Shown in pieces: positions 9,026 to 32,313 of a stretch of 43,291 bases of DNA. The translations under genes and the position numbers were made by a program. The DNA is from Spirochaetales bacterium (GTDB taxonomy: Bacteria > Spirochaetota > Spirochaetia > SZUA-6 > RPPD01): the NCBI GenBank assembly GCA_016929065.1, contig JAFGJO010000049.1, positions 1-43,291 on the forward strand, read 5' to 3'. Every line of letters starts with the position of its first letter. Positions within the stretch are counted from its first letter, which is position 1. Below the pieces are notes generated by a model that did no database searches, had not been told where the DNA came from, and saw only the letters and a list, made by a program, of their open reading frames with translations.

Positions 9026-10171
9026 TTAAATGTTTTTAAGTGCTTTTAAAAAGGCCTTCAGGTGATGCTTTTTCACATGCGGCATCAAGACGATCCGCAA
9101 ATGGGTGTTGAACAGTGATACAGCCCATCCCTGGCTGCGGAGCTTTTTCGCAATGTCCGGTGCAGGCAATCTTTCATGGACAATCCCTGCCACATTACAA
9201 ACCGGCGGAGTAATTAACGTGAAGCCGGGCAGCTTGTTTACCTCGACAGCAAACCAGTCGGTGAGGTCCATTGCCTTGCGGATAATTTTCTGGTAACCCG
9301 TAAGGCCAAGATGATGAAACAACGCCCAGCAGGCAATTGCTGCTGCTCCGCTTCGGGTGCCGACAATAGTGGGAAGGGCGGTTTCCCCTCCTGCAAGGTA
9401 GGTGACCGGAACGCTTACCGTCCTGGCCAGCTCCTTTGTCCGGTACAGGATGCCGCCGGCGGGAATGACGCTCATCCCCATTTTATGGGGATCAATCGTG
9501 ATCGATGAGACTCCCGGCAGGGAAAAATCAAATGAGGGGGATGGTCTGCCGAGTGACGACAAAAATGGCAATACAAATCCGCCGAATGCCGCATCAATAT
9601 GAAGATAAATATCTTTTTCGTGGGCGATGTCCGAGAGTTCTTCGATGGGATCGACCGTGCCGAGCGCAGTGGAGCCTGCAACACCGACTATAGCCATTGT
9701 TTTTCCGGTAATTTTTTTCCTGAGTTTTTTTACATCAACCACGAACCGGTCGGTACAGGGTATTTTTATTGTTGTACATCCGAGCATCCTGGCTGCTTTG
9801 TCAAAGGAAAAATGGGCATGTTCGGGGACAATAATTTCGGTTTTTTTCCCGCGGGATATCTCTTTTGCCGTCCACATGGCAAGAATGTTTGCTTCGGTCC
9901 CTCCGGTGACGATCGCGCCGTGTGCATGAAGGTGCGACAACATCCGCCCCATTATCCGTACTGCTTCCTGTTCGATTTGTACGGTGCCGGTGAACAGTCC
10001 GGGATCGCCGACATTTTTTTGCAGATGTTCCGCATACATGCGCTGGGCGAAGGGGTGGGGGTAAGTGCACATCGAGCCGACAATCTTGTCACCGGTGAAT
10101 GAGAGATCGTGCTTCAGTTTTTTATACAAGCGCCATCGTACTTCCCACGATGAAAGCTTTTTATCTTCCAT
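9026..10171 (-). CDS. mfnA: MfnA-type PLP-dependent L-aspartate/L-tyrosine decarboxylase
   Basis: A group II PLP decarboxylase of 381 residues. Typical features are VGDPGLFTGT, TGGTEANI, EHAHFSFDKAA (ring-stacking His120), IDAAFGG (Asp193) and the Schiff-base lysine in TIDPHKMG (Lys230). The whole pattern matches archaeal MfnA/aspartate decarboxylase rather than the bacterial pyruvoyl PanD or GadB. In archaea this family makes tyramine for methanofuran, or beta-alanine for CoA. The neighbours are CoA genes, so aspartate to beta-alanine is the likely reaction here. I start at ATG 10171; a TTG two codons upstream is possible. It lies 144 nt after panB with no evident terminator, and may be on the same transcript. 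Confidence 0.85.
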   Translation of the reverse strand: MEDKKLSSWEVRWRLYKKLKHDLSFTGDKIVGSMCTYPHPFAQRMYAEHLQKNVGDPGLFTGTVQIEQEAVRIMGRMLSHLHAHGAIVTGGTEANILAMWTAKEISRGKKTEIIVPEHAHFSFDKAARMLGCTTIKIPCTDRFVVDVKKLRKKITGKTMAIVGVAGSTALGTVDPIEELSDIAHEKDIYLHIDAAFGGFVLPFLSSLGRPSPSFDFSLPGVSSITIDPHKMGMSVIPAGGILYRTKELARTVSVPVTYLAGGETALPTIVGTRSGAAAIACWALFHHLGLTGYQKIIRKAMDLTDWFAVEVNKLPGFTLITPPVCNVAGIVHERLPAPDIAKKLRSQGWAVSLFNTHLRIVLMPHVKKHHLKAFLKALKNI

Positions 10172-10315
10172 GTACAATATCTTTCTGCATGATGCTGTTT
10201 TGATTTAATGTCATGTCATAACCCGTTGTCTGTTCCTGAATTTGCAACAAAAGCTTTTGAACGCTCCTTCCTAAACATATACACAACGGAGGATTTTGGC
10301 AACGTTGAATTTTAT

Positions 10316-11095
10316 TTAATGATAGGTATGCCCGTCATCCGGGTAGCGTTCTTCGTCGACTTCGGTGATAAACATGTTGACGGCATTGGCGATGGTGTTG
10401 CCGATGTCTGCATACTGCTTACGGAACTTCGGGGGGTGGGATTCTCCCCGGTCAAGACCGAGGAGGTCGTTGATGACCAGTACCTGGCCGTCACAGTATT
10501 TACCTGCGCCGATTCCAATCGACGGTACAGGAATGGCCGCTGTAATTGTTTTTGCCAGGTTTTCGGGAATGCATTCGAACACAATGGCAAAGACGCCTGC
10601 ATCACACAATCCGAGTGCATGGGATATCATTGCATCGGCTTCTTCGGCAGCTTTTCCCACGACATGATATTTTTCCGCAGTTTGCGGCAAAAGTCCCAAA
10701 TGTCCCATAACCGGAATATTTTCCGCTGTCAGGGCAGCGGCAATTTCGGGAAAATACCCTTCAAACTTTACTCCGGACGCCCCTGCATCGATACACAGCT
10801 TCGCATTCGATACCGCTGTTTTCGGGTCGCCAAAAGAACCAATCGGCATGTCCGCGATGACCGGGACAATACCGGCTCCGCGGCTGACTGCAGTTGTATG
10901 GTAGCAGATATCATCCATGGTGACATGTTTTGTTGAAGTATGGCCCTGAAATACCACCCCAAGGCTGTCGCCGACCAAAAGCAGGTCAACAGAAAGGCTT
11001 TGCAGTATCCGCGCCATCTGAAAATCATAGGCAGTGAGCATGATAATCTTTTTTTTGCTTTTCAGGCCGTCCAGCAGCTTTGTCATGTTCATCAT
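10316..11095 (-). CDS. panB: Ketopantoate hydroxymethyltransferase PanB
   Basis: This 259-residue protein is a clear PanB (3-methyl-2-oxobutanoate hydroxymethyltransferase), which adds a hydroxymethyl group from methylene-THF to 2-oxoisovalerate. The metal and catalytic acids are in place: Asp43 (VGDSLG), Asp82 (ADMPIGSFG), Glu112 (KFEG) and Glu174 (FECI). The family motif GIGAGKYCDGQVLV is at 194-207. Its ATG overlaps the stop of the phosphopantothenate synthetase gene by ATGA, so the two are translationally coupled. In ordinary bacteria panB sits with panC and panD; here both are replaced by archaeal-type enzymes. Confidence 0.95.
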   Translation of the reverse strand: MMNMTKLLDGLKSKKKIIMLTAYDFQMARILQSLSVDLLLVGDSLGVVFQGHTSTKHVTMDDICYHTTAVSRGAGIVPVIADMPIGSFGDPKTAVSNAKLCIDAGASGVKFEGYFPEIAAALTAENIPVMGHLGLLPQTAEKYHVVGKAAEEADAMISHALGLCDAGVFAIVFECIPENLAKTITAAIPVPSIGIGAGKYCDGQVLVINDLLGLDRGESHPPKFRKQYADIGNTIANAVNMFITEVDEERYPDDGHTYH

Positions 11096-11892
11096 TCCTT
11101 CGGTACTTCCATGAATATGCCCTTTTTTTCCATATCCGCAAGTTTCAGCCGGACAGCTTTGATCACCTCACCAACCGTTTTTTTATTGTTATATAAGTCC
11201 ACTATCTTCCAGACAGCGGTTTTGTCTTTTGTTTTCAGTTTTTCAATTTTTTCGATCAACAGGGGAAATACACGGACGATATTGTCGATGATCGTGATGT
11301 CGGCAAACTGTGCTGTTCGGGAAAAAGGATTCAGATCTACTGCGATAACTTTTTTCCCCATACGGACAAGCTGTTCGGTCCGGTCGCCGTCTTCGAGCGC
11401 CAGAAACACAACATCAGCATGGAATATCCCCCGGCTGTCCACTTTCCCCCGCTCACTCTCCAGTCCCGGAACACGGCTGTCGGCATCCTCTCCCACACCA
11501 TAGACAGTTTTTGCGCCTGCCGCGAGGAGCACTTGCTCAATGGCCTTCTCCCGTTCAAGGCAGCGGTAAAACAGATTGATCTCCAGCTGCGCCGAAGCTG
11601 CCCGTCCGGCATCCACGCATTCCTTTGCTGTGAGAGCGGCGACATTGCCGTTCACCGAGATTACAGGTTTGTCGGCCAACAGAAGAGCGGCGGCGGCGGC
11701 TTCGATTGCCGAATCTGCTGCCGCATGGGTTTGTTCTCCAAGAATATAATCAAAGGCTTCACCCCGGCCGTGTGCAAACAGTCCGGCTGTGGCCACCACT
11801 TTTTGTTCCCAGCCGTGCACCAGGCGCTCGCGCATTTCCAAAGATACTTTCCTGGGATGGCTGTCCGGAATATCAGTGCTCATCGATGACAT
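11092..11892 (-). CDS. pps: Archaeal-type 4-phosphopantoate--beta-alanine ligase (phosphopantothenate synthetase)
   Basis: The 266-residue product (from ATG 11892) matches the archaeal DUF137 family, which condenses 4-phosphopantoate with beta-alanine using ATP. Conserved blocks include IPDSHPRKVSLEMRERL near the N-terminus, AHGRGEAFDYILGE (40-53), PVISVNGNVAAL (76-87), LEINLFYRCLEREKAI, and ALEDGDRTEQL then VDLNPFSRTAQ (165-195). The start at 11892 has AGGAG three bases upstream; an alternative ATG is at 11883. It begins inside the last codons of the pantoate kinase gene (20-nt overlap) and ends overlapping panB, which is tight operon packing. This enzyme takes the place of bacterial PanC. 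It is unrelated to the PPS of nonribosomal clusters. Confidence 0.92.
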   Translation of the reverse strand: MSSMSTDIPDSHPRKVSLEMRERLVHGWEQKVVATAGLFAHGRGEAFDYILGEQTHAAADSAIEAAAAALLLADKPVISVNGNVAALTAKECVDAGRAASAQLEINLFYRCLEREKAIEQVLLAAGAKTVYGVGEDADSRVPGLESERGKVDSRGIFHADVVFLALEDGDRTEQLVRMGKKVIAVDLNPFSRTAQFADITIIDNIVRVFPLLIEKIEKLKTKDKTAVWKIVDLYNNKKTVGEVIKAVRLKLADMEKKGIFMEVPKE

Positions 11893-12838
11893 GTGCTCCT
11901 TGTTCTGCGATCGTACTTTCAAACAGTGTATGCGGTTTTTTGATTTGTGCAAATATGCCCATGATGGTTTCTTTCAAAGAAATATCGGCGATTGTGTAGA
12001 CGGCTTCGCCGAACATGGGCATTGTCGCGGGGATGTTTTTTTTGTCAAACAGATTCAGCACAATACGGACTTCGTTTGTGATAAAGCCGGTCTGTTCTGC
12101 AAAGTTTCTGCTTACAAGCATGAAATGGGCGATGACCGGATGCCGCAAAAAAGACTGCAGGCTGGTCCCGTATGCTTCCCTTATTTTCTGCCGTTGTTGC
12201 GGGTCCGAGAGGGCGGATGTTGTGGAGAGCGGGCCGAATACACAGCAAAAAAGCGTTGTTCCCCGAAGCTGCGGAAAGGAGAGCACCTCGCCGATCCCCG
12301 GGGCGCCGGGAGCGGTCCTTGTCTCGATCCCGCCGACGGTATCACCCAGCACGGTTCCCAGGCCGGTTTTGCATTCCGCTTCGGCGACATGTGCGATTTG
12401 TCCGGCTTCAATGTCCGACAACGGCAGACCGTACAATTTATTGAGTGCGAGCGAGAGGGAGAATGCTCCGGCTCCGCTTGACCCGAATCCCGCGCCAAAG
12501 GGAACCTCGATGTTGTGCATGATTTTCAGGCCTTTGGGAACACAGATGCCCAGACGCGAAAAAAACAATGTAATCACTTTTGCAGACACCATGGCATTGT
12601 CTGCTGTATTGTTTATGAAATACTGCGGAATTGCAGTGCTGCTTTTTTTTATGGCAACTGTTGTTGTGCAGCCTTTTGAAAGGGAGAAGCCCGCACCGCA
12701 AGAACCTTTTTTCAGAATGTCATCTGACTCGTCACAGATGTCAAAAAAACCGGTGATATGGCCGGGGGCCCATGCTTTTGCATGGTCCATCATAGAAGGG
12801 AACTTTCGGGAAAATTGAGGTGCTGAATTACTGCTCAT
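11873..12838 (-). CDS. pok: Archaeal-type pantoate kinase (GHMP family)
   Basis: A GHMP-fold kinase of 321 residues that phosphorylates pantoate to 4-phosphopantoate. It carries the pantoate-kinase N-terminal signature AWAPGHITGFFDICD (22-36), GSCGAGFSLSKGCTTTV (45-61), the ATP-binding loop PFGAGFGSSGAGAFS (113-127), and AHVAEAECKTGLGTV followed by GGIETRTAPGAPGIG (169-183). This combination is the archaeal PoK type, not bacterial CoaA/CoaW/CoaX. The start is uncertain: ATG 12838 has no Shine-Dalgarno but a promoter ends about 15 nt before it; ATG 12796 would begin MMDHAKAWAPGH, closer to archaeal N-termini. It is the first gene of the cluster. Confidence 0.92.
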   Translation of the reverse strand: MSSNSAPQFSRKFPSMMDHAKAWAPGHITGFFDICDESDDILKKGSCGAGFSLSKGCTTTVAIKKSSTAIPQYFINNTADNAMVSAKVITLFFSRLGICVPKGLKIMHNIEVPFGAGFGSSGAGAFSLSLALNKLYGLPLSDIEAGQIAHVAEAECKTGLGTVLGDTVGGIETRTAPGAPGIGEVLSFPQLRGTTLFCCVFGPLSTTSALSDPQQRQKIREAYGTSLQSFLRHPVIAHFMLVSRNFAEQTGFITNEVRIVLNLFDKKNIPATMPMFGEAVYTIADISLKETIMGIFAQIKKPHTLFESTIAEQGAHVIDEH

Positions 12839-17112: not shown

Positions 17113-17802
17113 TCATGAATACAACATAAAATAAATACACACCATCACGGCGAAATCGGCAAAAAAATGACTGATCCACGGTCCAATCACACTCCTGGAA
17201 TCACGCTGGATTTTACACCAGGCTGCCCCTCCGATGCCGATTGGAATACAGAGCAGCAGCGCTGTCCAGAACGGGAGGGCAATCTGCAGGATAATATAAT
17301 GGTGTGCGGCAAACATCGCCGAGCTTGTCAGGAGAGCGTACTTGTAGGGAATTTTCTTCATGAGTCCCCGGAAAATAAACCCGCGCCAGAAAAACTCTTC
17401 GATAAAAGAATGAAAGATGCTCAATACAAACGCGAAAATGATAAAATAATTGATGATTCCCAGATTCACAAAAGCGGTTTTCACATCGGCAGTGTAATTG
17501 TTAAAGAAATCTTTCAAAACAAAATAAAAGGCAGTGATTACAACAAAAATAACTGCACCGGTAATTATTCCCCAGATGACCGATGATTTGATATCTGGAA
17601 CGGTGCCGGTTTGCTTTACATCAACGTTGAAAAATGCATACCACACTATTGGATACAAGAGAATAAAAAGAGAGGTGAGGCCAAAAAAAACTGTGCTGAG
17701 CGGTTGCCCCCAGAAAACAACATAGGTGAGGATACTTCCCAGAATTTGCATGAACATTCCGGGTATGATGATAAAAAATACTGTTTTATCGGTTTTTGTC
17801 AT
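17113..17802 (-). CDS. CPBP family intramembrane metalloprotease
   Basis: A 229-residue polytopic protein with the Abi/CPBP motifs: EEFFWRGFIFRG (the EExxxR block), FAAHHYII (FxxxH block) and a final WISHFFADF (HxxxN/D-like block). These residues bind the catalytic metal in the Rce1-like CAAX protease family. Its substrate is unknown; bacterial members process or protect against small peptides. I prefer ATG 17802 over the TTG two codons earlier. The gene is convergent with the J-domain gene, with about 190 nt between the stops. A similar paralogue is encoded at 21844-22551. Confidence 0.8.
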   Translation of the reverse strand: MTKTDKTVFFIIIPGMFMQILGSILTYVVFWGQPLSTVFFGLTSLFILLYPIVWYAFFNVDVKQTGTVPDIKSSVIWGIITGAVIFVVITAFYFVLKDFFNNYTADVKTAFVNLGIINYFIIFAFVLSIFHSFIEEFFWRGFIFRGLMKKIPYKYALLTSSAMFAAHHYIILQIALPFWTALLLCIPIGIGGAAWCKIQRDSRSVIGPWISHFFADFAVMVCIYFMLYS

Positions 17803-17988
17803 TATCAATCCATTTTGATAAAATTACAGCGTATTTATTATGGTGTCAATGGACAAAACTTTTTTGTCAGGGAATGTAGAAAATAAAAGATTATTGTCCT
17901 GATTAATGATAAAAAAAGCAGGAAAAAAGAAGTAATACAGTCGAAAATATATTAAAAGGATTGTATACTGATGCGATAACAAGTTGTT

Positions 17989-18005: not shown

Positions 18006-18162
18006 GGAGATTACATTTATATATAGTGTGGTATTAATTAAAATACATTATATAATAAGGTTATTTCCAAATTGCAGCAGGGAGAAACAGCTTGCAGCGA
18101 TTTTGCCGGCATGGTAATTGCGTTATTCAAGGGTTTCAGCTTCATGGTGAAGGATGGAGACA

Positions 18163-20337
18163 ATGGATTTCATTGTAATTATTTTTTCTGTTATTTCAGT
18201 TCCCGTTGCACTGGGAATGACAATTCTATTTTTATTTCAGAAATATCAGTCAAAACAGCTGCGAAAAAATATTATGATGGAGTGTATTGATATTGCCGAA
18301 CAGCTGGGACAGGTCGCATTCGGATATCTTGATGCACGGATGGAATCTACTTCCCGCCGGATTCCTGGTGCTCCGGAGATCGAGGCGGGGATCCGGCAGA
18401 TTCGCAAAAATTTCAATGACATTACAAATGAACCAATCCGAAGGGTCTGTTACGTGGGAACCGATGCGTGGCTCGAAGGCAGTGAATGTGCAACGATTAT
18501 CGGCGAGAAACTGGAGGGGGAAGGGAAAGTCGCCGTCCTGGTGACTTCCAGTCTGCGCGCCCTGATCATGGCGCAGCGGCAGCGTAGTTTTGTCACAAAT
18601 ATAAATCTGCATTTTTCGGGTATTACCGTAGTTGAGACATATGAAGCACAGGCAAATCAGGATAATGCTGCATCATTTGTCAAACGAATGGCGGGCCAGG
18701 TGGATGCAATTTACATCACCGGCAATTCCGCCGCAGCCGGTGCGGCCCGGGGGCTTGAAGAATCAGGCTTTGTCGGAAAAGTATATCTGCTCTGTCATGA
18801 CCTCGATGGAAATATCGCCGGGTTTATCAGAAAGAAATCAATTTCCGCTTCACTTGTGTGTTCGACCATATCCCAGGGACGGGACCCGGTCATCCACCTT
18901 TTCAATCATATCGCTGCAGGATGGAAACCGATCCAGCCGCGATTGTTTATTCCTCTGGATTTGGTCGACAGCGATACCATTGAACAATTTTGGGATTTTT
19001 CGGATAACACCCTTCTTGAGGCAAAAAAACCCAAAGCGGATGCGGTGCAGCCGCATGTCAAGTCGGCACAGCCGCTTCGATTCGTCGTTTTCCTTGATGA
19101 CTGGAATAATGCCTTTCTGCAGATGAAAGCCGGTGTACAAATGGCAGCCGAACTCATCAAGCCGTATAATGCATCTGTCTCTATCCATGCAATTAACCAG
19201 CTGAAACGGCCCAAAGATGAAGTGGTTTCAGAGGTTGAAGCGATACTGGCCAAAGAACAAAACACCAAGATTGATGGCATCATTGCATTTGTCGGTTCCG
19301 CCGATCTTGTTCCAGTGCTCAACCGGCAGGTGGACAAGGGGATTCCTGTTGCCACGTTTGATTCCGAGCCGTTGGGCCTTCGCAGCATGGTAATGTGGCT
19401 GGCAAAAAGTTCGATCGAGCTGGGACGATTTTCCAGTGAGTATATGATCGGGCATCAGGAAATCAATACTTCGATTCAGGAAATATTGCGGACACTCAAT
19501 GAGATGGTCGGGCGTGTGACCAACGAAGCGGACACAGCAAAAGAGGGAGTGCATTCAGTCAATAACCTGATGGGACTCATCAACAACACCGTCACTGCCG
19601 AGGAAACGCAGCTTCAGACAGTGTCCAGTTCGTATGTGATTTCGAGCCGGCTTGCGGAAATGGTTGAGTTTTTTAACGAGAAAATCAGCGGGCTGAAAAA
19701 GGTGGGATCAGAAGTCAACCGGTCGCGCGAAAAAATATCATCGATGAGTGATTTTAATGAAAGAATTCTTACAATCATCAGCATCATTGATGATATTGCA
19801 CAACAGACAAATTTACTCGCCCTGAATGCCGCAATCGAAGCAGCGCGTGCAGGAGTTTCCGGGAAGGGCTTTGAAATTATTGCACATGAAATCAGAAATC
19901 TCGCAGACCGTTCCACGTCTTCAACGCGTGATGTTGAATCATTAATTACTGAAATGCGCACCGCAATTGAAGAGAGTGTCGGGGCAATAGGCCAGACAAA
20001 AACAATTGTCGACGAGCAGATCGATTCCATCACTGCCGCCAGTGAGCAGATGAACAATCTCTCGGAACAGCTTTTTGGTATCATGGAGCAGGTTCAGGGA
20101 ACGGTCGAACAGAATACACAGAAAATATTGAAAATGAAGGATTCAGCATTCAGCATGAATGCACTGGTGGAAAAAAGTTCCGTGATCTCAGCAGACAACA
20201 GCCTGGCAATCGAAACACTGAGCAGCAATTTTACCGAGATATCCACCCAGTTTAATGAAATGAACAACCAGACAAAACTGCTGGGCGATATTGTGAATGT
20301 GCTGCATCATACGGTAGCGCAGTTTAATGCCGACTGA
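18163..20337 (+). CDS. Methyl-accepting chemotaxis-like protein with sugar-binding-type lobes
   Basis: This 724-residue protein has one N-terminal TM helix (about 2-24), followed by a basic stretch (KYQSKQLRK), so the rest should face the cytoplasm. Residues about 93-275 resemble the C-terminal lobe of LacI/type I periplasmic binding proteins ([35 protein letters not shown]). Residues about 305-402 resemble the N-terminal lobe ([30 protein letters not shown]). A coiled-coil signalling domain follows, with the hairpin tip [22 protein letters not shown] (around 545-567). I chose ATG 18163 because GGAG precedes it; ATG 18154 is the alternative. A 14-bp terminator stem starts at the stop codon. 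No HAMP domain is visible. Confidence 0.85.
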
Positions 20338-21129: not shown

Positions 21130-21519
21130 TTACGACCAGTTTTCTGTTTTTAGCCCGGAGAACCGGTTAAAATGTTTGCTGTTGCCTGTTATCAGTTTAT
21201 CACATTTTGTCAGGGCTATTGCTGCAATCAGTAAATCAGCATCTGCAACAGGCTGGCCGCCTTTTTCCAGATTACTTTTTAATTCGCCGAATTTCATCGC
21301 TATATCCAGATCTGAATCAATCACATCAACACTTAATAAAAAAATATCAATAAGCGTCTTGTTTTTTTGAAGATTCCCCGATTTCTGTGCGACGTAAAAT
21401 AATTCTGCAACAGTCATGAATGAGATTGCAACATCCTCGCTGGCTGTTTCCCTTTGCTTGATCACAGACTTGTTCCCGCGTAAAATTTCAATACAAATAT
21501 CAGTATCGATCAGGATCAT
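21130..21519 (-). CDS. vapC: VapC-type PIN-domain toxin
   Basis: A 129-residue PIN-domain ribonuclease. The acidic active-site residues are present: Asp5 and Asp7 (LIDTDICIE), Glu39 (TVAELFY), Asp93 and Asp95 (VADADLLIAA), and Asn113 (TGNSKHF). VapC toxins cleave specific RNAs, often initiator tRNA, until bound by their antitoxin. The start overlaps the antitoxin stop by ATGA. Nothing essential appears missing, so it should be active. Confidence 0.9.
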   Translation of the reverse strand: MILIDTDICIEILRGNKSVIKQRETASEDVAISFMTVAELFYVAQKSGNLQKNKTLIDIFLLSVDVIDSDLDIAMKFGELKSNLEKGGQPVADADLLIAAIALTKCDKLITGNSKHFNRFSGLKTENWS

Positions 21520-21797
21520 AATTGAATATTCCGGCCAGGTGAACGATGGCTGTAAATGTCTTGTATTATTTCTTCAGTTTTTCGCTCATCTTCCCATTTC
21601 CCGCATATTTCCTTCCAGAGAGCTATCTGAAGATCTTTATTGATTTTTACACTCCGCGTTTCCGGTATGATTGTTTCAAGGCCCCGCTCGAGTATGATTA
21701 ACAGTTCATTGTTGATGCTCCGCTTCTCTCGTTCGGATAGAGCCTTTATTTTTTTCATAATATCATCGGGGATATTTCTTACGGTAAGATTGGTCAT
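21516..21797 (-). CDS. vapB: VapB/FitA-like ribbon-helix-helix antitoxin
   Basis: A 93-residue antitoxin. The N-terminus TNLTVRNIPDDIMKKIKAL is the ribbon-helix-helix of the FitA/Arc group, and the helix SINNELLIILERGLE follows. The C-terminal part (LWKEICGKWEDER) would thread into VapC. GAGG lies before the ATG. The promoter upstream is covered by three 11-bp iterons, which are likely its autoregulatory sites. It is translated with vapC through a four-base overlap. Confidence 0.88.
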   Translation of the reverse strand: MTNLTVRNIPDDIMKKIKALSEREKRSINNELLIILERGLETIIPETRSVKINKDLQIALWKEICGKWEDERKTEEIIQDIYSHRSPGRNIQL

Positions 21798-21813: not shown

Positions 21814-21854
21814 CAATAGAGTTATGATATAGTTACAATATAGTTATATGTCAA
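21814..21854 (-). promoter_or_regulatory. vapBC promoter with three tandem 11-bp iterons
   Basis: Read on the minus strand, TTGACA (21854-21849), a 17-bp spacer and TATATC (21831-21826) form a promoter. It is overlaid by three head-to-tail 11-bp units, TAACTATATTG, TAACTATATCA and TAACTCTATTG (21846-21814). The unit length is one helical turn, as expected for a row of ribbon-helix-helix dimers. The first unit overlaps the stop of the upstream CPBP gene. Confidence 0.65.
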
Positions 21855-22551
21855 TAATGCCCTGCTCATACACCACGTCCGCAATAACAATCATGAGCAT
21901 TGCCACTACAAATGCATGAGAGATCCAGCCTGGAATGATCGTTTTGTATTTACTGAACAGAATGTTCCAGATAAAACCGGCAACCACAATGAGTGTTCCG
22001 ATGAGCAGTACATAGAAAAGCGAAAATATAAAAACGAGCATGATATAATGGTGAATCCCAAAACAGATGGCTGATACAACTGCTGCGACGATTGTGTTTG
22101 TTTTTTGTTCCAGTTTTCCAAATACAAACCGGCGCCAGTATAATTCTTCTATTAAAGTATTAAACACACAGCCGAATAGAGCATAAACAAAAAACAGCTG
22201 CCGGAGCGCGGCGAGATCTGCTTCTCCATACCCGCGGGAAGCATATTGCAGCAGGTCATTTTTGAAAAACTGATACCCCGCGAACAAGACTCCAAACAAT
22301 ATAATTCCCGAGATGATCCCTGCGGCTATTGATTGTATTTTCTTTTTACAGTTTTTTATTTCAGTAATAATCTGTGAAGGTTGTCCCCGGAGCAGTGGCC
22401 AGCCGGCTAACCAGACAATCTGGAAAATCATCAGGATATTCCCCCAGACAGTATCTTTCAGAAAAAGCATGTAGATTGTGGTGATAACCGCGGGGAGAAA
22501 CAGGGCAATAAGCAGAACTGGAAGTTTTGTTTGTTTTATATTCGGGGTCAT
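21844..22551 (-). CDS. CPBP family intramembrane metalloprotease
   Basis: A 235-residue polytopic membrane protein with the CPBP motifs IEELYWRRFVFG, FGIHHYIM and WISHAFVV. About seven or eight hydrophobic helices are visible. It resembles the gene product at 17113-17802 in motif spacing and overall layout (Trp after EE-x-x/EEF), so they may be paralogues. GGAG lies eight bases before the ATG. It sits between mazEF and vapBC, 14 nt after mazF on the same strand, and could be transcribed with mazEF. CPBP proteins are often found near small peptide or toxin systems; no such peptide is evident here. Confidence 0.8.
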   Translation of the reverse strand: MTPNIKQTKLPVLLIALFLPAVITTIYMLFLKDTVWGNILMIFQIVWLAGWPLLRGQPSQIITEIKNCKKKIQSIAAGIISGIILFGVLFAGYQFFKNDLLQYASRGYGEADLAALRQLFFVYALFGCVFNTLIEELYWRRFVFGKLEQKTNTIVAAVVSAICFGIHHYIMLVFIFSLFYVLLIGTLIVVAGFIWNILFSKYKTIIPGWISHAFVVAMLMIVIADVVYEQGIIDI

Positions 22552-22565
22552 TGATATTCTCCGGC

Positions 22566-22907
22566 TTAATGTTCCAGTATTGTCAGCAGCTTGATAAGCA
22601 CTTCCAGTACATCTTCTTTTTTTGATTTTTCAATAAATATTGCCTCCCTTTTCTGCCAATCGACATTTTTCACCTGATCAGCAAGAACAACCCCCTGGAT
22701 TTTATTACCCGACAGTGGTACTTCAAACGGGTAGCCTTTTTCTTTGCTCGATATCGGACAGGCAATGAGCAAATGAGTCTTTTCATTATATTTTTTTGGA
22801 GAGAGTACGATAGCCGGCCGGTTCCCCGCCTGTTCATGTCCTGTCTGGGGATTGAAGTTCAGCCATATCAGGTCTCCCTTTTCCGGAATATACGTTTTAT
22901 TTACCAA
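22566..22907 (-). CDS. mazF: MazF-type mRNA interferase toxin
   Basis: A 113-residue MazF/PemK toxin. Family blocks: YIPEKGDLIWLNFNPQTGHE, QAGNRPAIVLSPKKYN (the Arg of the active site), LLIACPISS (catalytic Thr/Ser region) and GVVLADQVKNVDW. These cleave single-stranded RNA at short motifs. The start is a TTG at 22907, overlapping the last codons of mazE by seven bases, which is a common arrangement. There is no in-frame ATG nearby. The length is normal. Confidence 0.9.
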   Translation of the reverse strand: MVNKTYIPEKGDLIWLNFNPQTGHEQAGNRPAIVLSPKKYNEKTHLLIACPISSKEKGYPFEVPLSGNKIQGVVLADQVKNVDWQKREAIFIEKSKKEDVLEVLIKLLTILEH

Positions 22908-23137
22908 ACTTCATTTCCCTCTTGTCTGCCGAAATCCACTTCTGTATGGAGATTTGTTTCATTTATTTGATCGAGAAAGAAATCCAGTCCGGGTTTTTCT
23001 TTTTTTCGGATTATGATCTGGTTTTCTTCTTCCACAACTTCAACCTCTGAGCCATCTTCCAGGGCGAGGTCTTTTGCCATAATAGTGGGGATTCTTATTC
23101 CAAGGCTGTTGCCCCATTTCTTCAAAATAGTAGTCAT
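22901..23137 (-). CDS. mazE: MazE-type AbrB-fold antitoxin
   Basis: A 78-residue antitoxin. The N-terminal swapped-hairpin domain is clear: MTTILKKWGNSLGIRIP, then AKDLALEDGSEVEVVEEENQIIIRKK. The C-terminal tail (LDFFLDQINETNLHTEVDFG) is acidic and should bind MazF. The start is ATG 23137; the in-frame TTG upstream at 23173 is part of the promoter -35 box and not a real start. No Shine-Dalgarno precedes the ATG, and the promoter places the transcription start on or very near it. Confidence 0.88.
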   Translation of the reverse strand: MTTILKKWGNSLGIRIPTIMAKDLALEDGSEVEVVEEENQIIIRKKEKPGLDFFLDQINETNLHTEVDFGRQEGNEVW

Positions 23138-23143
23138 AATGAG

Positions 23144-23173
23144 AGTATAAACAATGTATATACAACGTGTCAA
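23144..23173 (-). promoter_or_regulatory. mazEF promoter and palindromic operator
   Basis: TTGACA (23173-23168) and TATACT (23149-23144) are separated by 18 bp on the minus strand. A perfect 10-bp palindrome TGTATATACA lies in the spacer (23155-23164). The predicted transcription start is about at the mazE ATG. Confidence 0.6.
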
Positions 23174-25166: not shown

Positions 25167-25449
25167 CATATTTTATGCCAGGCGAACAACTCCATTTTTT
25201 CTTTGTGAGAACCATTTTTATTCGCGGTATTGGATGCTGCTCCGAATATTTCCACATTCCCGATTCCCCCGTGCCCATACCTTTTCACATAGCACTTGCA
25301 GCTCTCCGGCAATGTCACATCCAGCTCGGTTTCAATTGCGGTTATTGCGCTTTCACAAGCCGGGCCTGATACCAGAAAATGCTCACCCGCTGTTTTGACA
25401 AGCTGTGCAATTGTTTCTTTTCCCTGATCCGGTTTGCCTGCCTGTTCAT
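25130..25449 (-). pseudogene. Frameshifted SMI1/KNR4-type gene after jetD
   Basis: A minus-strand frame encodes ETIAQLVKTAGEHFLVSGPA, then ITAIETELDVTLPES, then KRYGHGGIGNVEIFG. This is the N-terminal half of a SMI1/KNR4 domain as found in many bacterial immunity proteins. An ATG at 25449 overlaps the jetD stop by ATGA, as in coupled genes, but it is in another frame: a one-base shift in the first dozen codons is needed to join them. After VEIFGAAS the sequence loses the family pattern and runs into the convergent aldo/keto reductase. I read it as a former fifth gene of the operon, frameshifted and cut at its 3' end. A sequencing error at the shift cannot be excluded. Confidence 0.5.
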
Positions 25450-26660
25450 CTTGCCCTTCTTTCAGTCCGGGTCAAGGCAGAAAACTGCCCCGGGTATTTC
25501 CGCAGGTCGATGACTTCCTGCTCAATTCCCAGCCCTGTTTCGCGCATTGCCATGCACAATGGCGCAAGAGCGGGAAGGGTTACAGAATCCAGTTTCTTTA
25601 TTGCCTGGGGGGTGATGGAATACCCATGCGGAAGATATTCGCGGTATGTGTCCATGTCCATCAAATACGGCCGGACGCTTCCCCCGGTCACCTCATGTAT
25701 TTTTGAGTAGATGAGAAGCCCGCCGGGATCAAGATCGCCGAAATGGAAAACTGATGCGCCCGCTGTTGTAAACAACGCAAGAAGCGCGCGGTCAGCGGCA
25801 TTCACCTGACCCGATGTGTAGAGAAATCCGTCGAAGCGGTCACGCAGAATGCCGCATGCCAGGTGAAATGTCTCTTTGTTTTCGATAGAGAGGATGCGGG
25901 GTGACGGATGCGGCCATTCGATGCGTGCGACCGTGCTGATTGTGGAAAGAGGAAGTGTCGCAATCCTGCCGCCCAGATCCCATCGCCGTCCGTCAGAAAA
26001 ACAAACTGCACCATCACCGGCGATCGTCGATTCCGGATAGCTTCTTTCGAGGCCGAGCCGGGCGGAAAGCTTTTCCCCCGTGGCGGTCACGCTCAGTTGG
26101 TCGGCCGCCGGGAGGATCTTTTCGATCCGCTTTGAATCCCGAAAAAGCCTGACGCTCAATGCGCGAATGGAATGACCTGATGCCGCTTCCCTCGTGCATG
26201 CCGCGAGACGGAAAACATCGGCGAGTTCTTCGGCTTTCGCGACCGGGAACGGCTCCCTGTTTTCGAGGAGCCGTCGGCAATGGTCTTGCAGAACAGCCAT
26301 CCATTCATCTGCCGTTGTCCCTGCCATGTCGTCAAGAAAGGTGAGCATGCCAATCCGGATCGAATCCGGATGCGGCCGGCCGAGCAGCCCGTAAAGTTTT
26401 TCGCTGTCCAAAAGAAAAAGCGCATCGAGTACATCCCCCTTGCGGTACCGCTTCCACGCAGGCTTCACCACACCGCCTGCTGCAAGCGATTCAACCGATG
26501 CGAGAAACGCTTCCTTGGCCTGCGCGTCCGTAGTAATCTCCGGAAAGTAACGCTCCCAGCCTGAAAATCGGAGCGGACGTCCCTCGCGATAGTGGGCCGA
26601 TGCCGGAAAAGAAGCGGCGAATCGTTCGAGTATGGCCCGCTCATACGGAGATATGGTCAT
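25446..26660 (-). CDS. jetD: Wadjet protein JetD (Toprim-like nuclease)
   Basis: A 404-residue protein of the DUF3322/DUF2220 type. A winged-helix arm region fills the N-terminal half. The C-terminal part is Toprim-like: LSIENKETF (Glu260 and Glu263) and HFGDLDPGGLLIY (Asp309 and Asp311). In Wadjet, JetD nicks or cuts plasmid DNA once JetABC has extruded it. Its start overlaps the jetC stop by four bases. The active-site acids are intact, so the nuclease should work. It is the last intact gene of the operon. Confidence 0.9.
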   Translation of the reverse strand: MTISPYERAILERFAASFPASAHYREGRPLRFSGWERYFPEITTDAQAKEAFLASVESLAAGGVVKPAWKRYRKGDVLDALFLLDSEKLYGLLGRPHPDSIRIGMLTFLDDMAGTTADEWMAVLQDHCRRLLENREPFPVAKAEELADVFRLAACTREAASGHSIRALSVRLFRDSKRIEKILPAADQLSVTATGEKLSARLGLERSYPESTIAGDGAVCFSDGRRWDLGGRIATLPLSTISTVARIEWPHPSPRILSIENKETFHLACGILRDRFDGFLYTSGQVNAADRALLALFTTAGASVFHFGDLDPGGLLIYSKIHEVTGGSVRPYLMDMDTYREYLPHGYSITPQAIKKLDSVTLPALAPLCMAMRETGLGIEQEVIDLRKYPGQFSALTRTERRAR

Positions 26661-29600
26661 TCACGCTCCCTTTTGCCGGTTTCCGCCAGGAGCCTGTAGT
26701 CCCGGATATGGGCCCGGTAATTCTTGCGGATGATAAGGTTGATCCTCTCCATAAAGGGGGCAATTGTTTCGATTTTTTCTGTGGGCACCGCGGTGACTAC
26801 CTGCATACCGAGTTTTTTGAAAAAATCGACCATACGCCCAATGCGGTCGTCATCCATTTTGTTGAAAGCCTCGTCAAAAAGCACGAGCCTGACCGCGTTC
26901 GGTTCGTCCTTGTAGAAACGGTAAAAGGATGCGGCGATCGCGACATAGTAGGGCGTCTGCGTCTCGCCCCCGGATTTTTCGCGCAGTACCCTCGACAGGG
27001 AGGATTCAAGCGGCTTTGCCGTCTGTTCACCCGTAGTATCGGTGTGTTTGATGATGATATCGTAGCGGAAATACTTGCGGTAATCGCAGAGCTCACGTAC
27101 TTCCTCTGACTGAAGGTCGTTTTCCAGTATCGATTCGAAGAGGGATTCGATGGATCGCTTTCTGTCGTCGGATGAGAGCCCCGCGAAAAGCGGACCGGAC
27201 AAATCCTCGATCTGCGCCGCTTCCCTGATCGCGTCAAGCAGCCGTTTTTTTTCCGGCTGGGCTTCCATGTGAAACCGGTACATATCCTTTCCGAAAGGGA
27301 TGTCCCTGAGCGTGTGGTTAAGTTCGGAAAAGTTTTCTCTCGCGTCCGTAAGGTATTCGTTGAGCCTGGAGACAAAATGCTCACGGAACTGCTGCTCTGC
27401 TTCCCGGCGGGCTTTCTCTATTTTCTCCCTGTACGCGGGGAGCTGTGTGTCGCGATACGTCTCAAGGGTCTGGATAAATGGTTCGGAATCATCGCTGTCT
27501 TCCTGCATGTAGGTGTGATTACGGAGGTTATAGGCATGCTTGTCCTTGTGATTTTCCCCGCGTTCCTTCTGGAGTTTTGTCTCCAGGCCTTTCATGGAAG
27601 CGTCATAGTTTGTCTGTATTTGCGTGAGCGCGGAAAGTGAGCGGTCATTTTTTGTACGTTCTGCATAATACGATTCAAATTGATCCGCAAGCTCCTTGTG
27701 CGATGCGACAAAGGTATGGAGGCTCTCTGCAAGGAACCTGCTCTCCTCCTCCAGTCCCAGCGCTGCGTCCCTCAAATTCCGCAATGCCACGGTCCGTTCG
27801 CCATATTCCTGGTAGAGCTTCTGGGTCTCTATTCTGAGCTCTTCAAGCGCGGCCTCGATGTTCGTAATTTGCTTCTCAAGTTCCTTAAACTTGCTCGTAT
27901 CGATTGCGGCGAGTTTGTTGCCGATGGCCTGAAGTTCTGATTCGAGCCGCTCTGCATTTTCGAATGCTGTGGACAACTCTTTCATCTCGAAAAGAGCCGC
28001 ATACACGTTTCGCAGGACTGTCTCCTGCTGCGTCTCCTCTTTAAGCCGTGATTCAACCGAGGCGAGTTCTTTTTCCGCGAGTTCGATCAGGGTCGCGAGA
28101 TCAGCAAGTCTTTTCTCCTTCGCCTGCTTGCCGATGTACCACCGCGAGTATATTTCTTCCTTGATCCGGGACGCGGTATACCCCGAGTACCTCATGCACT
28201 CGCGCGTGACTGCCCGCTCATGCTCACGCAGGGTATCGAGTCCGGCCATCATCACCTCTCCCAGCAGGTATGCCGCGTACCTGCGCGCAAGCGGGGAGTC
28301 GGCCTCGATAATTTCTGCGAGGGAGCCCGGCCTGATCCTGGATTCAAGCATGCGCGCGAGATCGGGGAGTCCCACACCGGCGATGCGTTTCGGGAGATTG
28401 TTGTAGACAGAGAGGGCCTCCGGGAAGTCGCTTTCCGCGACGAGCACATTGAAGCGCTGCGTGTTCAGCCAGCCCTCAACCGCGTTCTGCCATGACGGGT
28501 CTTTTACCTCGATTCTGTCCGCGAATATCCACGCCTCGATCGACTTTTTCCGCAATGCGTGAAGAAGCTCTATGGTACTCTCCGGGTAGCGAAGGATTCC
28601 CCTGCGGAGGTCTTTTTCTTCAGCCGCGAGGTCGGTGAGCCTCTGTCGGGTTTCCCCGCGTTCACGTTCGAATCCGAGCATTCTCCGGAGGTTTTCTTCC
28701 TTCTCTTTTTCGATCCGCGCGGTTTCTGCTTCGATGGAATCGTCAATGCCCCGCCCCAGAAGAGTCTCGCTCTGGGTTTTAAGAAGCCGGAATCTTTCCA
28801 TACGCTCATGCTCCTTTCCGAGCGTGAACTGAATCTCCTGTTGTTGATCCAAAAGCCTCTTGTAAAGGATGTGTGTGTCATTTTTGTTCAGGGCGAGCTT
28901 TGCGTCATCGAGCTGGCCGGAAAGCCGTTGCCGGAGCTGTTCGTTGTAGTCCCGGAGGCCGTCGATACGGGAAATCTCCCGTTCCGCGTCAGCCTGCATG
29001 CATGCGTTTTGGGAAATCTTTTTTGTGTTAATTTCAAGATTGATTCTGTGCCGAAGATACTCCTGAAGCGTGATCTGGAGAATGTACTGGTCGATCATTA
29101 CCTGGCGCCCGGCAATCCGCTTCAGGTGCGTTATCTTTTCCTCGATGGAGAGGGCTTCCCGCTCGGCTTCCTTGTAATTAAGAAGGTTCTCTTTCATCGC
29201 AGTGATGTCGACCTGCCGCTCCTCGAGAATGTAGTCGCAGACAAACCGGTCTACCGACGTAAAGGGAGTGAACGACACAGACCGGACCAATGCCGCGAAG
29301 TACGGGTTAAAATCGGTGTTGCGCCGGTGCACCTTGAGCAGAGTGGTGAGACGCGATGCGTATTCCCTCTTTGTGGAGCAGACGATGCCGCCAGAAGCCT
29401 TTACCTTCTCCCGGAAGCTGGACGGTGTGAGCAGGGAATCCTTGTCCGTAAAAACAAGATCATCGAGCGTTCCATGATCAAGTATCCAGAGGGATTCATT
29501 CACCTCGCCCTGTGCGTCTGCTTCAACCATGATCCCGGAAAGGAACCGGTTTTCATCATCATCGAATTCAAGGACGACATGGGTGCGGGATTGATTGCGG

Positions 29601-29854
29601 TAGTAATCAAGCTCGGTCGCGCCGATTTTGCACCGGCAGTAGCTCTCCAGCGTCCGGTTCGTCCTGTTCTGGGTTGCTGCCGCATTAAACTGAAGCCTGC
29701 GGATGTCGGCGACGAGGGCGTACTGGATTGCATCGATAATCGTGGACTTTCCGCTCCCATTATCTCCGGCCAGGAGCGTTGTCTCGCTGAGTTCGAGCGT
29801 CGCATCGTGAAAAAAGTGCCAGTTGATAAGGCGGGTCCGGCGAAGAAGAAGCAT
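26657..29854 (-). CDS. jetC: Wadjet protein JetC (SMC/MukB-like ATPase)
   Basis: A 1065-residue SMC-like ATPase. Walker A is GDNGSGKST (30-38), the ABC signature region KSGGETQTP lies near 960, and Walker B with the catalytic Glu is LVLFDEAFNKMD (990-1001). Long coiled coils span about 220-420 and 560-800, with a hinge between them near 440-560. It loads with JetA and JetB and extrudes DNA loops to recognise closed circular plasmids. The gene starts 6 nt after jetB and overlaps jetD. Local base composition is clearly GC-richer than that of the flanking genes, as judged by eye. All ATPase motifs are intact. Confidence 0.93.
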   Translation of the reverse strand: MLLLRRTRLINWHFFHDATLELSETTLLAGDNGSGKSTIIDAIQYALVADIRRLQFNAAATQNRTNRTLESYCRCKIGATELDYYRNQSRTHVVLEFDDDENRFLSGIMVEADAQGEVNESLWILDHGTLDDLVFTDKDSLLTPSSFREKVKASGGIVCSTKREYASRLTTLLKVHRRNTDFNPYFAALVRSVSFTPFTSVDRFVCDYILEERQVDITAMKENLLNYKEAEREALSIEEKITHLKRIAGRQVMIDQYILQITLQEYLRHRINLEINTKKISQNACMQADAEREISRIDGLRDYNEQLRQRLSGQLDDAKLALNKNDTHILYKRLLDQQQEIQFTLGKEHERMERFRLLKTQSETLLGRGIDDSIEAETARIEKEKEENLRRMLGFERERGETRQRLTDLAAEEKDLRRGILRYPESTIELLHALRKKSIEAWIFADRIEVKDPSWQNAVEGWLNTQRFNVLVAESDFPEALSVYNNLPKRIAGVGLPDLARMLESRIRPGSLAEIIEADSPLARRYAAYLLGEVMMAGLDTLREHERAVTRECMRYSGYTASRIKEEIYSRWYIGKQAKEKRLADLATLIELAEKELASVESRLKEETQQETVLRNVYAALFEMKELSTAFENAERLESELQAIGNKLAAIDTSKFKELEKQITNIEAALEELRIETQKLYQEYGERTVALRNLRDAALGLEEESRFLAESLHTFVASHKELADQFESYYAERTKNDRSLSALTQIQTNYDASMKGLETKLQKERGENHKDKHAYNLRNHTYMQEDSDDSEPFIQTLETYRDTQLPAYREKIEKARREAEQQFREHFVSRLNEYLTDARENFSELNHTLRDIPFGKDMYRFHMEAQPEKKRLLDAIREAAQIEDLSGPLFAGLSSDDRKRSIESLFESILENDLQSEEVRELCDYRKYFRYDIIIKHTDTTGEQTAKPLESSLSRVLREKSGGETQTPYYVAIAASFYRFYKDEPNAVRLVLFDEAFNKMDDDRIGRMVDFFKKLGMQVVTAVPTEKIETIAPFMERINLIIRKNYRAHIRDYRLLAETGKRERE

Positions 29855-29860
29855 GACGTG

Positions 29861-30514
29861 TTACCCCCTCTCCGGTTCAGAAAAAATATCCGGATCGGTG
29901 TCTTCATCGATATTTTCCGTTTCTTCGTAAGTATCCGCCGCAGCTGATTTAAGCTTTTTCAGCCGATCGTGGGCTTCGTCAATCGATTCACCGTCCAGGG
30001 CGAAGACAATCGACGGATACAGGATGATAAGCGAATCGGGATCGGTCTCCTCGCCCTTGATCGCAATCAGGCGAAGGGTCCGGAATCTCCGCAGCATGTT
30101 CACAAACCGGGTTTTTCCGGGCGCGCGGTCCGAAAGCACGCGGTATCTGTCCTGGAGTTCGGATTGCAGCACTGTCCGTTCGCGAGCAAGCGATATCTCC
30201 AGCCGCTTTTCCTCGTAGAGCACGCGTACTACCAAAAGCCCGATCGTTTCCTCAAGGTTGAGCGAAAACCGGGCAATGCCGGGTCCTTTGATTGCGATTA
30301 CGCCCAGCGATTCGTCCTTTCGGAGCGACCAGCCTGAGAGTCCCAGGTAGGTATCGAACGCCTCCTCGTGGGAGAGGATGAAACGATAGAGGGGTTTGTC
30401 CCGGTCGAGCATGTCAAGAATGAAGCCTCCCGAAATAAGGGTATTGACTCCGCGGGCGAAAAGCTCCTGTTCACGCTCGGAAAAGTGTTCGAATACAGAC
30501 CAGTCGCCGATCAT
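29861..30514 (-). CDS. jetB: Wadjet protein JetB (MukE-like, DUF4194-type)
   Basis: A 217-residue winged-helix protein corresponding to the MukE/kite subunit. It contains LFARGVNTLISGGFILDMLD, a central strand-rich LGLSGWSLRKDESLGVIAIKG and FVNMLRRFRTLRLI. The acidic C-terminus (AADTYEETENIDEDTDPDIF) is typical. The start is ATG 30514, overlapping the jetA stop by ATGA; the longer frame upstream reads through jetA and is spurious. It should bridge JetA and JetC. Confidence 0.82.
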   Translation of the reverse strand: MIGDWSVFEHFSEREQELFARGVNTLISGGFILDMLDRDKPLYRFILSHEEAFDTYLGLSGWSLRKDESLGVIAIKGPGIARFSLNLEETIGLLVVRVLYEEKRLEISLARERTVLQSELQDRYRVLSDRAPGKTRFVNMLRRFRTLRLIAIKGEETDPDSLIILYPSIVFALDGESIDEAHDRLKKLKSAAADTYEETENIDEDTDPDIFSEPERG

Positions 30515-31968
30515 CCTGTGCTCCTCATAAAAGAATGCTCCCTGAAAACAAACCGCCCCTTGCGCACTGATTTTTTTCCCCACTCCACGCGGAAGGGGAA
30601 ACCGGGTTGCCGCCCCTCTGCGTAGGCAGCCGCATAGAGAAGGCGCACGAACGACGGGGTGTCGGCCACCATATCCTCTGCCCTGGCGCGGGTACCGTCC
30701 TGCCCGCATGCCGTATTCAGGAATTCCGTTATCTTGGCCGGGTTGAGCTGGTTTTTGATGCGGAGCACAAGCTCGGTCTCCAAAAGCTCGATCTCAAAGG
30801 CGTTGTCAACGGGAGCGGGTATCTTCACATCTTCTTCACGGGTGTGCCTTCGGATGTAAAGCGATTCACGGGCCAAAAAACCCGTACCCGGAATGTGATG
30901 TCTCACTTCCGGGCAATATTGTCCGCCATTACCCGAAACGATCGCCTGGATAATCCGGCCGATCTTGCCCTGGAGTGAGCTGTCCGCGTAAAGCCGGGCC
31001 TTGATTTTTTCCGTGGAAATGCGCGAATATTGCCTGTTTTTATCGTCGATCTCCTCGAGCATGGGATCGATGGATTTGAGGTCGTCCCGGATTTCCTTGA
31101 GGATATCGATGATCTCTTTTTTTGCCTCTACCCCCGATCTGTTTCTGATCACGGCGAGCTTGACCGCGGCCCTGGACAGCCATTCGTCATTCTGCAGAAA
31201 CTCATTAATCTTCCGGTTAACGAGGGGACGGTACTTGGAAAGGTTGTCGGATGTCTTCAGCCGGTTATACGCCTTGTCCACGATCTCCCGCATGTAAATA
31301 TCGTAGTGAAAGTGAAGGATATCCTTCACTTCTGTTTTCGCATCAAATATTTTCTGTACATGCGTCTTGATGTTCTGGCTCAGGATCTTCAGCGAATCGA
31401 TGAGCAGGCGCGTGTGGTTGCGCGCATTCAGGACCGCATGGTGTCCGTTTTCCGCGGCGGAATCCGAGCACAAAGAGGAGTACACACCGATGATGTGGCT
31501 CTCGTATTCTACCTGTGTGCCCCTGGTCACCTCGTGAAGGGCGATATAAAAGTGCTTCGCCCACACGGGCATGTTGATTACCTGGGTAAAATCGGCGAGC
31601 ACCTCCTCGCTCATCCACCCGTACCAAACCAGGCGCCTCAGAAAAAAAGAGGCCAGTCCTCGGGGCGATCCGGTCTGTTCCAATGCGCTTTCAGCGGGAC
31701 CTGTATCCGCCCGGTCTTCTCCTGCACGGCTTGCGGACGGCTCCTTGTTTACCGGTTCCCCCTCGTCTTCCTCGTCAATGACAGGAACCGCGTTTCCCAG
31801 CCCCTCGAAATACCGCTCGAAGGAAGAGACAACAAACGCCCGTTCGACACCGCTGTGGAATTCGAGAAAAAGCTCATAATAGCAAATAAGAAGCGCTGCA
31901 AAATGCTCCTTGTTCTTGTAGGACAGGGGAATAAAAAAATTGTCTGGCAGTTCTCTGAAAGGATTCAT
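30511..31968 (-). CDS. jetA: Wadjet protein JetA (MukF-like kleisin)
   Basis: A 485-residue kleisin-type subunit. The N-terminus MNPFRELPDNFFIPLSYKNK is typical of the JetA/DUF5716 group rather than the DUF3375 JetA of type I systems, as I remember them, so this is probably a type II or III Wadjet. Conserved-looking stretches are DFTQVINMPVWAKHFYIALHE and a helical bundle rich in Ile/Lys. I chose ATG 31968; a longer frame upstream is not conserved and covers the promoter. No Shine-Dalgarno is present, but two inverted repeats and a promoter lie directly upstream. Confidence 0.85.
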   Translation of the reverse strand: MNPFRELPDNFFIPLSYKNKEHFAALLICYYELFLEFHSGVERAFVVSSFERYFEGLGNAVPVIDEEDEGEPVNKEPSASRAGEDRADTGPAESALEQTGSPRGLASFFLRRLVWYGWMSEEVLADFTQVINMPVWAKHFYIALHEVTRGTQVEYESHIIGVYSSLCSDSAAENGHHAVLNARNHTRLLIDSLKILSQNIKTHVQKIFDAKTEVKDILHFHYDIYMREIVDKAYNRLKTSDNLSKYRPLVNRKINEFLQNDEWLSRAAVKLAVIRNRSGVEAKKEIIDILKEIRDDLKSIDPMLEEIDDKNRQYSRISTEKIKARLYADSSLQGKIGRIIQAIVSGNGGQYCPEVRHHIPGTGFLARESLYIRRHTREEDVKIPAPVDNAFEIELLETELVLRIKNQLNPAKITEFLNTACGQDGTRARAEDMVADTPSFVRLLYAAAYAEGRQPGFPFRVEWGKKSVRKGRFVFREHSFMRSTG

Positions 31969-32015
31969 CGTATCTACTGGATACGATTGTACAATCGATC
32001 TGGATGTTTTGGCAA
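31969..32015 (-). promoter_or_regulatory. Wadjet operon promoter with two adjacent inverted repeats
   Basis: On the minus strand, TTGCCA (32015-32010), 18 bp and TACAAT (31991-31986) make a promoter. A perfect 14-bp palindrome, CGATTGTACAATCG (31997-31984), covers the -10. Next to it, CGTATC-CAGTA-GATACG (31985-31969) runs to the base before the jetA ATG. The leader would be about 11 nt. The rest of the 345-base gap up to the peptidase gene holds no gene. Confidence 0.55.
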
Positions 32016-32313
32016 GCGGTGTTTTAGCACCCAGGGCCAACGGGTTTTTAAAAAAATGACGGGAACAACTGCACATTTTTATTTTCATCTGGCAGCTCCG
32101 CCGGCACATTGCAGTGGGTGTGCGGGTTTTTCATCTTCAAGCAACGCAGGATGAATCTCAAAATGAAAGTGAAGGGAAAGAGTGTTTTTAATAAGAAACA
32201 GTCTTGTTAAGCTGAGCCCTTCTCATCTGCAAAAAATTGTTATATAATTATCTTCAGATTGAAGGAAATACTTCTTGTTGAGGAAAATTTAAATTCAGTT
32301 TTTTGAGAAGTGT

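Follow-up and report, generated by a model that had tools for sequence, protein, structure and literature searches.

The chemoreceptor gene in the window, the stretch of 43,291 nucleotides from a Spirochaetales bacterium analyzed here, probably encodes a cytoplasmic, sugar-type sensor of the CUT2/Peripla_BP_4 kind that is circularly permuted, with the cut at the first inter-lobe crossing, and that relays ligand binding via its hinge to an MCP signalling domain. With residues of the window protein counted from the start at 18154, the gene is laid out as follows:

18154-20337 (+): whole gene, an ORF of 727 aa, for a chemoreceptor with a permuted type I PBP sensor
18166-18237 (+): single transmembrane helix (hydropathy), residues 5-28, N-terminus predicted outside, with acidic METMD before and basic KYQSKQLRK after it
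18241-18267 (+): basic stretch KYQSKQLRK, residues 30-38, a positive-inside signal (sequence)
18268-18411 (+): connector, residues 39-86, with the short G-x-L motif GYLDARM (alignment)
18412-18426 (+): first copy of the hinge strand, FNDIT, residues 87-91, its T invariant in the family
18436-18996 (+): C-terminal lobe of the PBP, coming first in the chain, residues 95-281, with pocket-type R142 and D216
18997-19068 (+): new linker of 24 residues (282-305) from the canonical C-terminus to the canonical N-terminus
19069-19371 (+): PBP N-terminal lobe, residues 306-406, placed second
19354-19383 (+): repeat of the hinge strand, with the joint to the signalling helix, residues 401-410
19384-20334 (+): helical stalk and MCP signalling hairpin, residues 411-727 (Pfam MCPsignal at 518-668, i.e. 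19705-20157)

The likelier start is the ATG at 18163 (724 aa), with AAGGA at 18150-18154, 8 nt upstream. Pfam identified the signalling hairpin in the window protein (PF00015, 5.4e-32) and returned no LacI HTH (PF00356). The connector motif reads GNLT or GDLT in the aligned relatives and is HAMP-like by eye only; assignment of the connector to HAMP (PF00672) was rejected, this family being absent at E 0.001 from the 27 members searched. HAMP domains between the transmembrane and signalling domains are common in MCPs and not obligatory. A CheA/CheW pathway is represented in the window genome by seven CheW-domain matches, and the FlaA family is present with three.

The gene is flanked by two Rce1-like CAAX proteases (17113-17808 and 21844-22551, both on the minus strand). 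Elsewhere in the window, and likewise on the minus strand, we observed two toxin-antitoxin pairs (21130-21797 and 22566-23173), one made up of VapC and an unnamed antitoxin-like ORF and one of MazF and a MazE-like ORF, as well as a complete Wadjet type I set in the order JetD-JetC-JetB-JetA (25446-32109). A further minus-strand cluster (9026-12838) resembles the archaeal route to coenzyme A, here in a spirochaete, and comprises an MfnA-type decarboxylase (454 bits), PanB, an archaeal-type phosphopantothenate synthetase (334 bits) and a pantoate-kinase-like GHMP kinase (160 bits, below the cut-off).

An earlier note on this DNA had read the sensor as binding-protein lobes in swapped order, and all comparisons placed the C-terminal lobe first. 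The Pfam Peripla_BP_4 family matched the window protein in two stretches with a total of 79.8 bits, the better of which aligned residues 92-246 with profile positions 90-247 of 258. In a phmmer comparison with 6gq0, residues 95-256 corresponded to chain positions 125-286 and residues 353-405 to 68-121, and because these colinear blocks are reversed in the window protein, the order is C-lobe then N-lobe. Similarly, a profile of nine relatives matched 2qvc/2h3h with profile positions 11-201 on chain positions 97-298 (119 bits) and 224-320 on 2-91 (36 bits). When residues 306-406 were placed in silico before 95-281, a single Peripla_BP_4 stretch covering profile positions 1-247 was obtained at 91.4 bits. 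This restored continuity decides between the two options that the same note had left side by side, a permutation or two half domains: judged from sequence, the sensor is a circular permutation of a complete type I PBP domain, since both lobes are complete, the old ends are joined by a linker, and the new ends lie at one canonical junction. The linker leads from the canonical C-terminal segment (residue 281) to the canonical N-terminal strand (residue 307), and the new ends fall by sequence at the first inter-lobe crossing. Homologous sequence for both lobes of a type I PBP is thus present, with the N-before-C order violated in the window protein and all of its colinear relatives. AlphaFold2 models from two-sequence input were of low confidence (pLDDT 50.0 and 50.7, pTM 0.42 and 0.35), and the PBPs among their top Foldseek matches were not counted as evidence.

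Closer examination of the new ends revealed that the canonical hinge strand, TFNSET, is retained at both ends of the permuted domain. In the sister SBPs, the first inter-lobe crossing has the sequence ATFNSETDTENKRVFFVGAD; the C-lobe of the permuted proteins starts with the same strand (EFNSATEKPCQRLLYVGAD in L048), and their N-lobe ends by repeating it (TFNSEPMSLRG). In most members, matches to the canonical HMM approach from either side and overlap in columns 97-102. The N-terminal hinge copy scored a mean of +3.2 bits at the exact canonical register compared with -10.7 (sd 1.2) at 70 other offsets, a z-score of 11.5 that is descriptive, the sequences being related. At the joint to the signalling helix, E405 and R410 are present in all 27 members and P406 in 26 of them. 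To judge by these alignments, the double hinge strand is the overlap that a tandem duplication with subsequent trimming leaves. Tandem pairs of type I PBP domains, with the lobes in normal order, occur in two single ORFs of about 660 aa (L104 in G064:C136 and L105 in G004:C35), which could illustrate the duplication stage on the way to a permutation.

For the binding cleft we used the sugar contacts of E. coli RbsB, which include R141, F16, D215 and Q235. Equivalents of R141 and, as F or W, of F16 were kept in 28 of 28 members, those of D215 in 20 and of Q235 in 22. The window protein itself has R142, D216 and F321, with C236 in place of Q and A320 in place of F, and could bind another ligand or none. 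It is unlikely that the domain as a whole has lost ligand binding and serves in the stalk as a spacer, either structural or for protein interaction. Such a role would fit the wide variation between members at the equivalents of RbsB positions 12, 13, 164 and 190, as well as the gene neighbourhoods of family members, among which we found no conserved one pointing to a ligand, but it sits poorly with two contacts kept in every member and two more in most.

Chemoreceptors are dimers, and the clamshell could instead form across the receptor dimer, from the C-lobe of one subunit and the N-lobe of the other. The 24-residue linker and the helices at both ends could permit such an exchange. We nevertheless regard this domain swap as improbable, as the canonical ends are linked and the canonical crossing is opened, which is what a permutation within one chain predicts.

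The predicted location of the permuted sensor follows from the hydropathy scan. The only hydrophobic segment of the window protein (residues 1-30, KD max 2.58) precedes KYQSKQLRK, and no other occurs between residue 30 and the signalling hairpin, as had been proposed from the sequence at the outset. Contact with CheA/CheW requires the MCP tip to be in the cytoplasm. With no transmembrane segment between the sensor and this output domain, the sensor must, on hydropathy, charge and the required position of the tip, a line of argument well established for MCPs, be cytoplasmic as well, in agreement with the earlier note. The single helix holds for the window protein and for L020, but it is not a hallmark of the family, many relatives having an N-terminal hairpin of two helices. 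A periplasmic sensor of the ordinary kind with a second, overlooked membrane helix, which the apparent signal peptides of the periplasmic-type sister SBPs might suggest, is nearly excluded: in addition to the scan of the window protein and the demands of CheA/CheW contact, in the members scanned, the stretch from sensor to hairpin nowhere reached transmembrane-grade hydropathy, the one exception being a weak segment of L023 (418-446, KD max 1.70) that lies inside the N-lobe region.

A search of related genomes for the same architecture, proposed beforehand as a check, recovered the permuted order repeatedly. Among 395 genomes of the class searched with a permuted-order profile, 20 proteins from 17 genomes and eight families matched end to end (260-474 bits, frames of 722-824 aa), a recurrence that is, on these profile matches, far beyond chance. 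The next-best matches (at most 202 bits) were mostly 300-400 aa long and had the N-lobe upstream of the C-lobe where both were found. The window's own genome encodes a paralogue (L045), and in one contig two permuted chemoreceptors are adjacent (L084, G074:C110). The same design was observed in L048 and seven relatives from eight genomes titled Bacteroidetes (frames of 796-884 aa), in which the spirochaete FlaA family is absent; in a broader sample of that phylum it was rare (3 of 395). No relatives were found in a search of viral contigs. Peripla_BP_4 and MCPsignal were both present in all 27 full-length members scanned. The rearranged receptor is therefore a conserved design across free-living spirochaetes and one non-spirochaete lineage. 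An artefact, in the form of a tandem SBP cut short or of two half domains that happen to lie in this order in one MAG, might be suspected from the 69-contig assembly behind the window and from the tandem SBPs of the class (L104, L105), but is refuted by the same order in many independent genomes, including the single-contig G032, G049 and G057, and in the other lineage.

To place the permuted domains among type I PBPs, a tree was built on both lobes with all sequences rearranged to canonical order and LacI-type regulators as the outgroup. The permuted domains formed one clade (support 97/93, and 97/96 with non-spirochaete rows added), the sister of which consists of ordinary sugar-transporter SBPs with what look like signal peptides. 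Among them, L068 is encoded next to BPD_transp_2 and ABC_tran genes in an ABC operon. The ABC operon of the sister SBP is followed by a URO-D family protein (L090, 7285-8541, plus strand), possibly a clue to the substrate of that transporter. The first tree contained nine more rows in normal order, most of them on long branches; it was ambiguous, required two changes and hinted at two independent permutations. This scenario was rejected when removal of the nine rows gave the single origin with the support values above. The tree thus speaks for one origin, with inheritance and transfer thereafter.

Taken together, the sequences show that an SBP of the CUT2/Peripla_BP_4 kind was opened at the first inter-lobe crossing with its old ends joined by a linker, and that the product, with the hinge strand kept at both new ends, is preceded by a membrane anchor and followed by an MCP signalling hairpin. 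We further propose that the ligand is a small intracellular molecule, to judge by family membership most likely a monosaccharide or a derivative of one, which would bind in the cleft and close the clamshell. As the membrane-side helix and the signalling helix would both be attached at the hinge, closure would be passed straight to the tip: the two side-by-side hinge strands would shift, and with them the output helix and the CheA/CheW-binding tip. The CheW-domain proteins of the window genome would receive the signal, and the cell would steer by the level of an internal metabolite rather than by an external solute. Whether this amounts to a receptor class of its own, with a clamshell spliced at its hinge into the helix from membrane to signalling domain, duplicated hinge strands feeding each helix, and navigation by an intracellular sugar-type metabolite, is in our estimation evenly balanced.

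The nearest precedent is Tp0684 (TpMglB-2) of Treponema pallidum, a 'Type Ic / Cluster Bc' SBP that is naturally permuted, binds D-glucose and changes conformation (PMC4990184), evidence that a type I PBP can function in permuted form. It was the only natural permuted type I PBP in the literature searched, and the open-access literature searched contained no description of permuted PBPs in chemoreceptors, which is weak evidence of novelty. PDB 5er3 was not taken as a precedent with the same cut: it was colinear over profile positions 71-309 and fell below threshold with a junction-spanning profile, and its chain is expected to be in normal order despite the colinear match. Both Tp0684 and the window sensor are spirochaetal type I PBPs of the sugar-binding kind that carry a natural circular permutation. 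In Tp0684, the cut lies after the third N-lobe strand, the first three strands are moved to the C-terminus, and there are four inter-lobe crossings (PMC4990184), whereas in the window protein the whole first N-lobe segment has been moved and the cut lies, by sequence, at the first inter-lobe crossing, so that the 'Type Ic' arrangement (a cut between N-lobe strands 3 and 4, four crossings) is not the one seen here. Furthermore, Tp0684 is a stand-alone periplasmic lipoprotein, while the window sensor is predicted to be cytoplasmic and is fused to an MCP.

Few PBPs are circularly permuted in nature, and Tp0684 leaves open what purpose the permutation serves. The cut point, the double hinge strand and the position between the membrane helix and the output helix suggest a reason: with both ends brought to the hinge, movement of the lobes can be read out there. 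Protein engineers use a similar trick for biosensors. The arrangement also suggests that sugar-type PBPs can act as intracellular chemotaxis sensors.

The closest relatives, CUT2-type sugar SBPs such as the Thermotoga maritima glucose-binding protein (2h3h/2qvc) and the L068 group, belong to the same family and share cleft residues with the window protein, but have normal lobe order, a signal peptide and ABC-transporter partners, whereas the window protein is part of a receptor. LacI-type regulators (e.g. L030, with HTH and Peripla_BP_4) likewise use a type I PBP to sense metabolites inside the cell; unlike the window receptor, their lobes are in normal order and their output is DNA binding. 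With classical MCPs and Trg, the window receptor shares the MCP signalling domain with its conserved tip as well as the membrane anchor. Classical MCPs, however, carry a periplasmic ligand-binding domain, and Trg reads external SBPs, while in the window receptor the sensor lies C-terminal to the transmembrane helix, is predicted to be cytoplasmic and is itself a permuted SBP.
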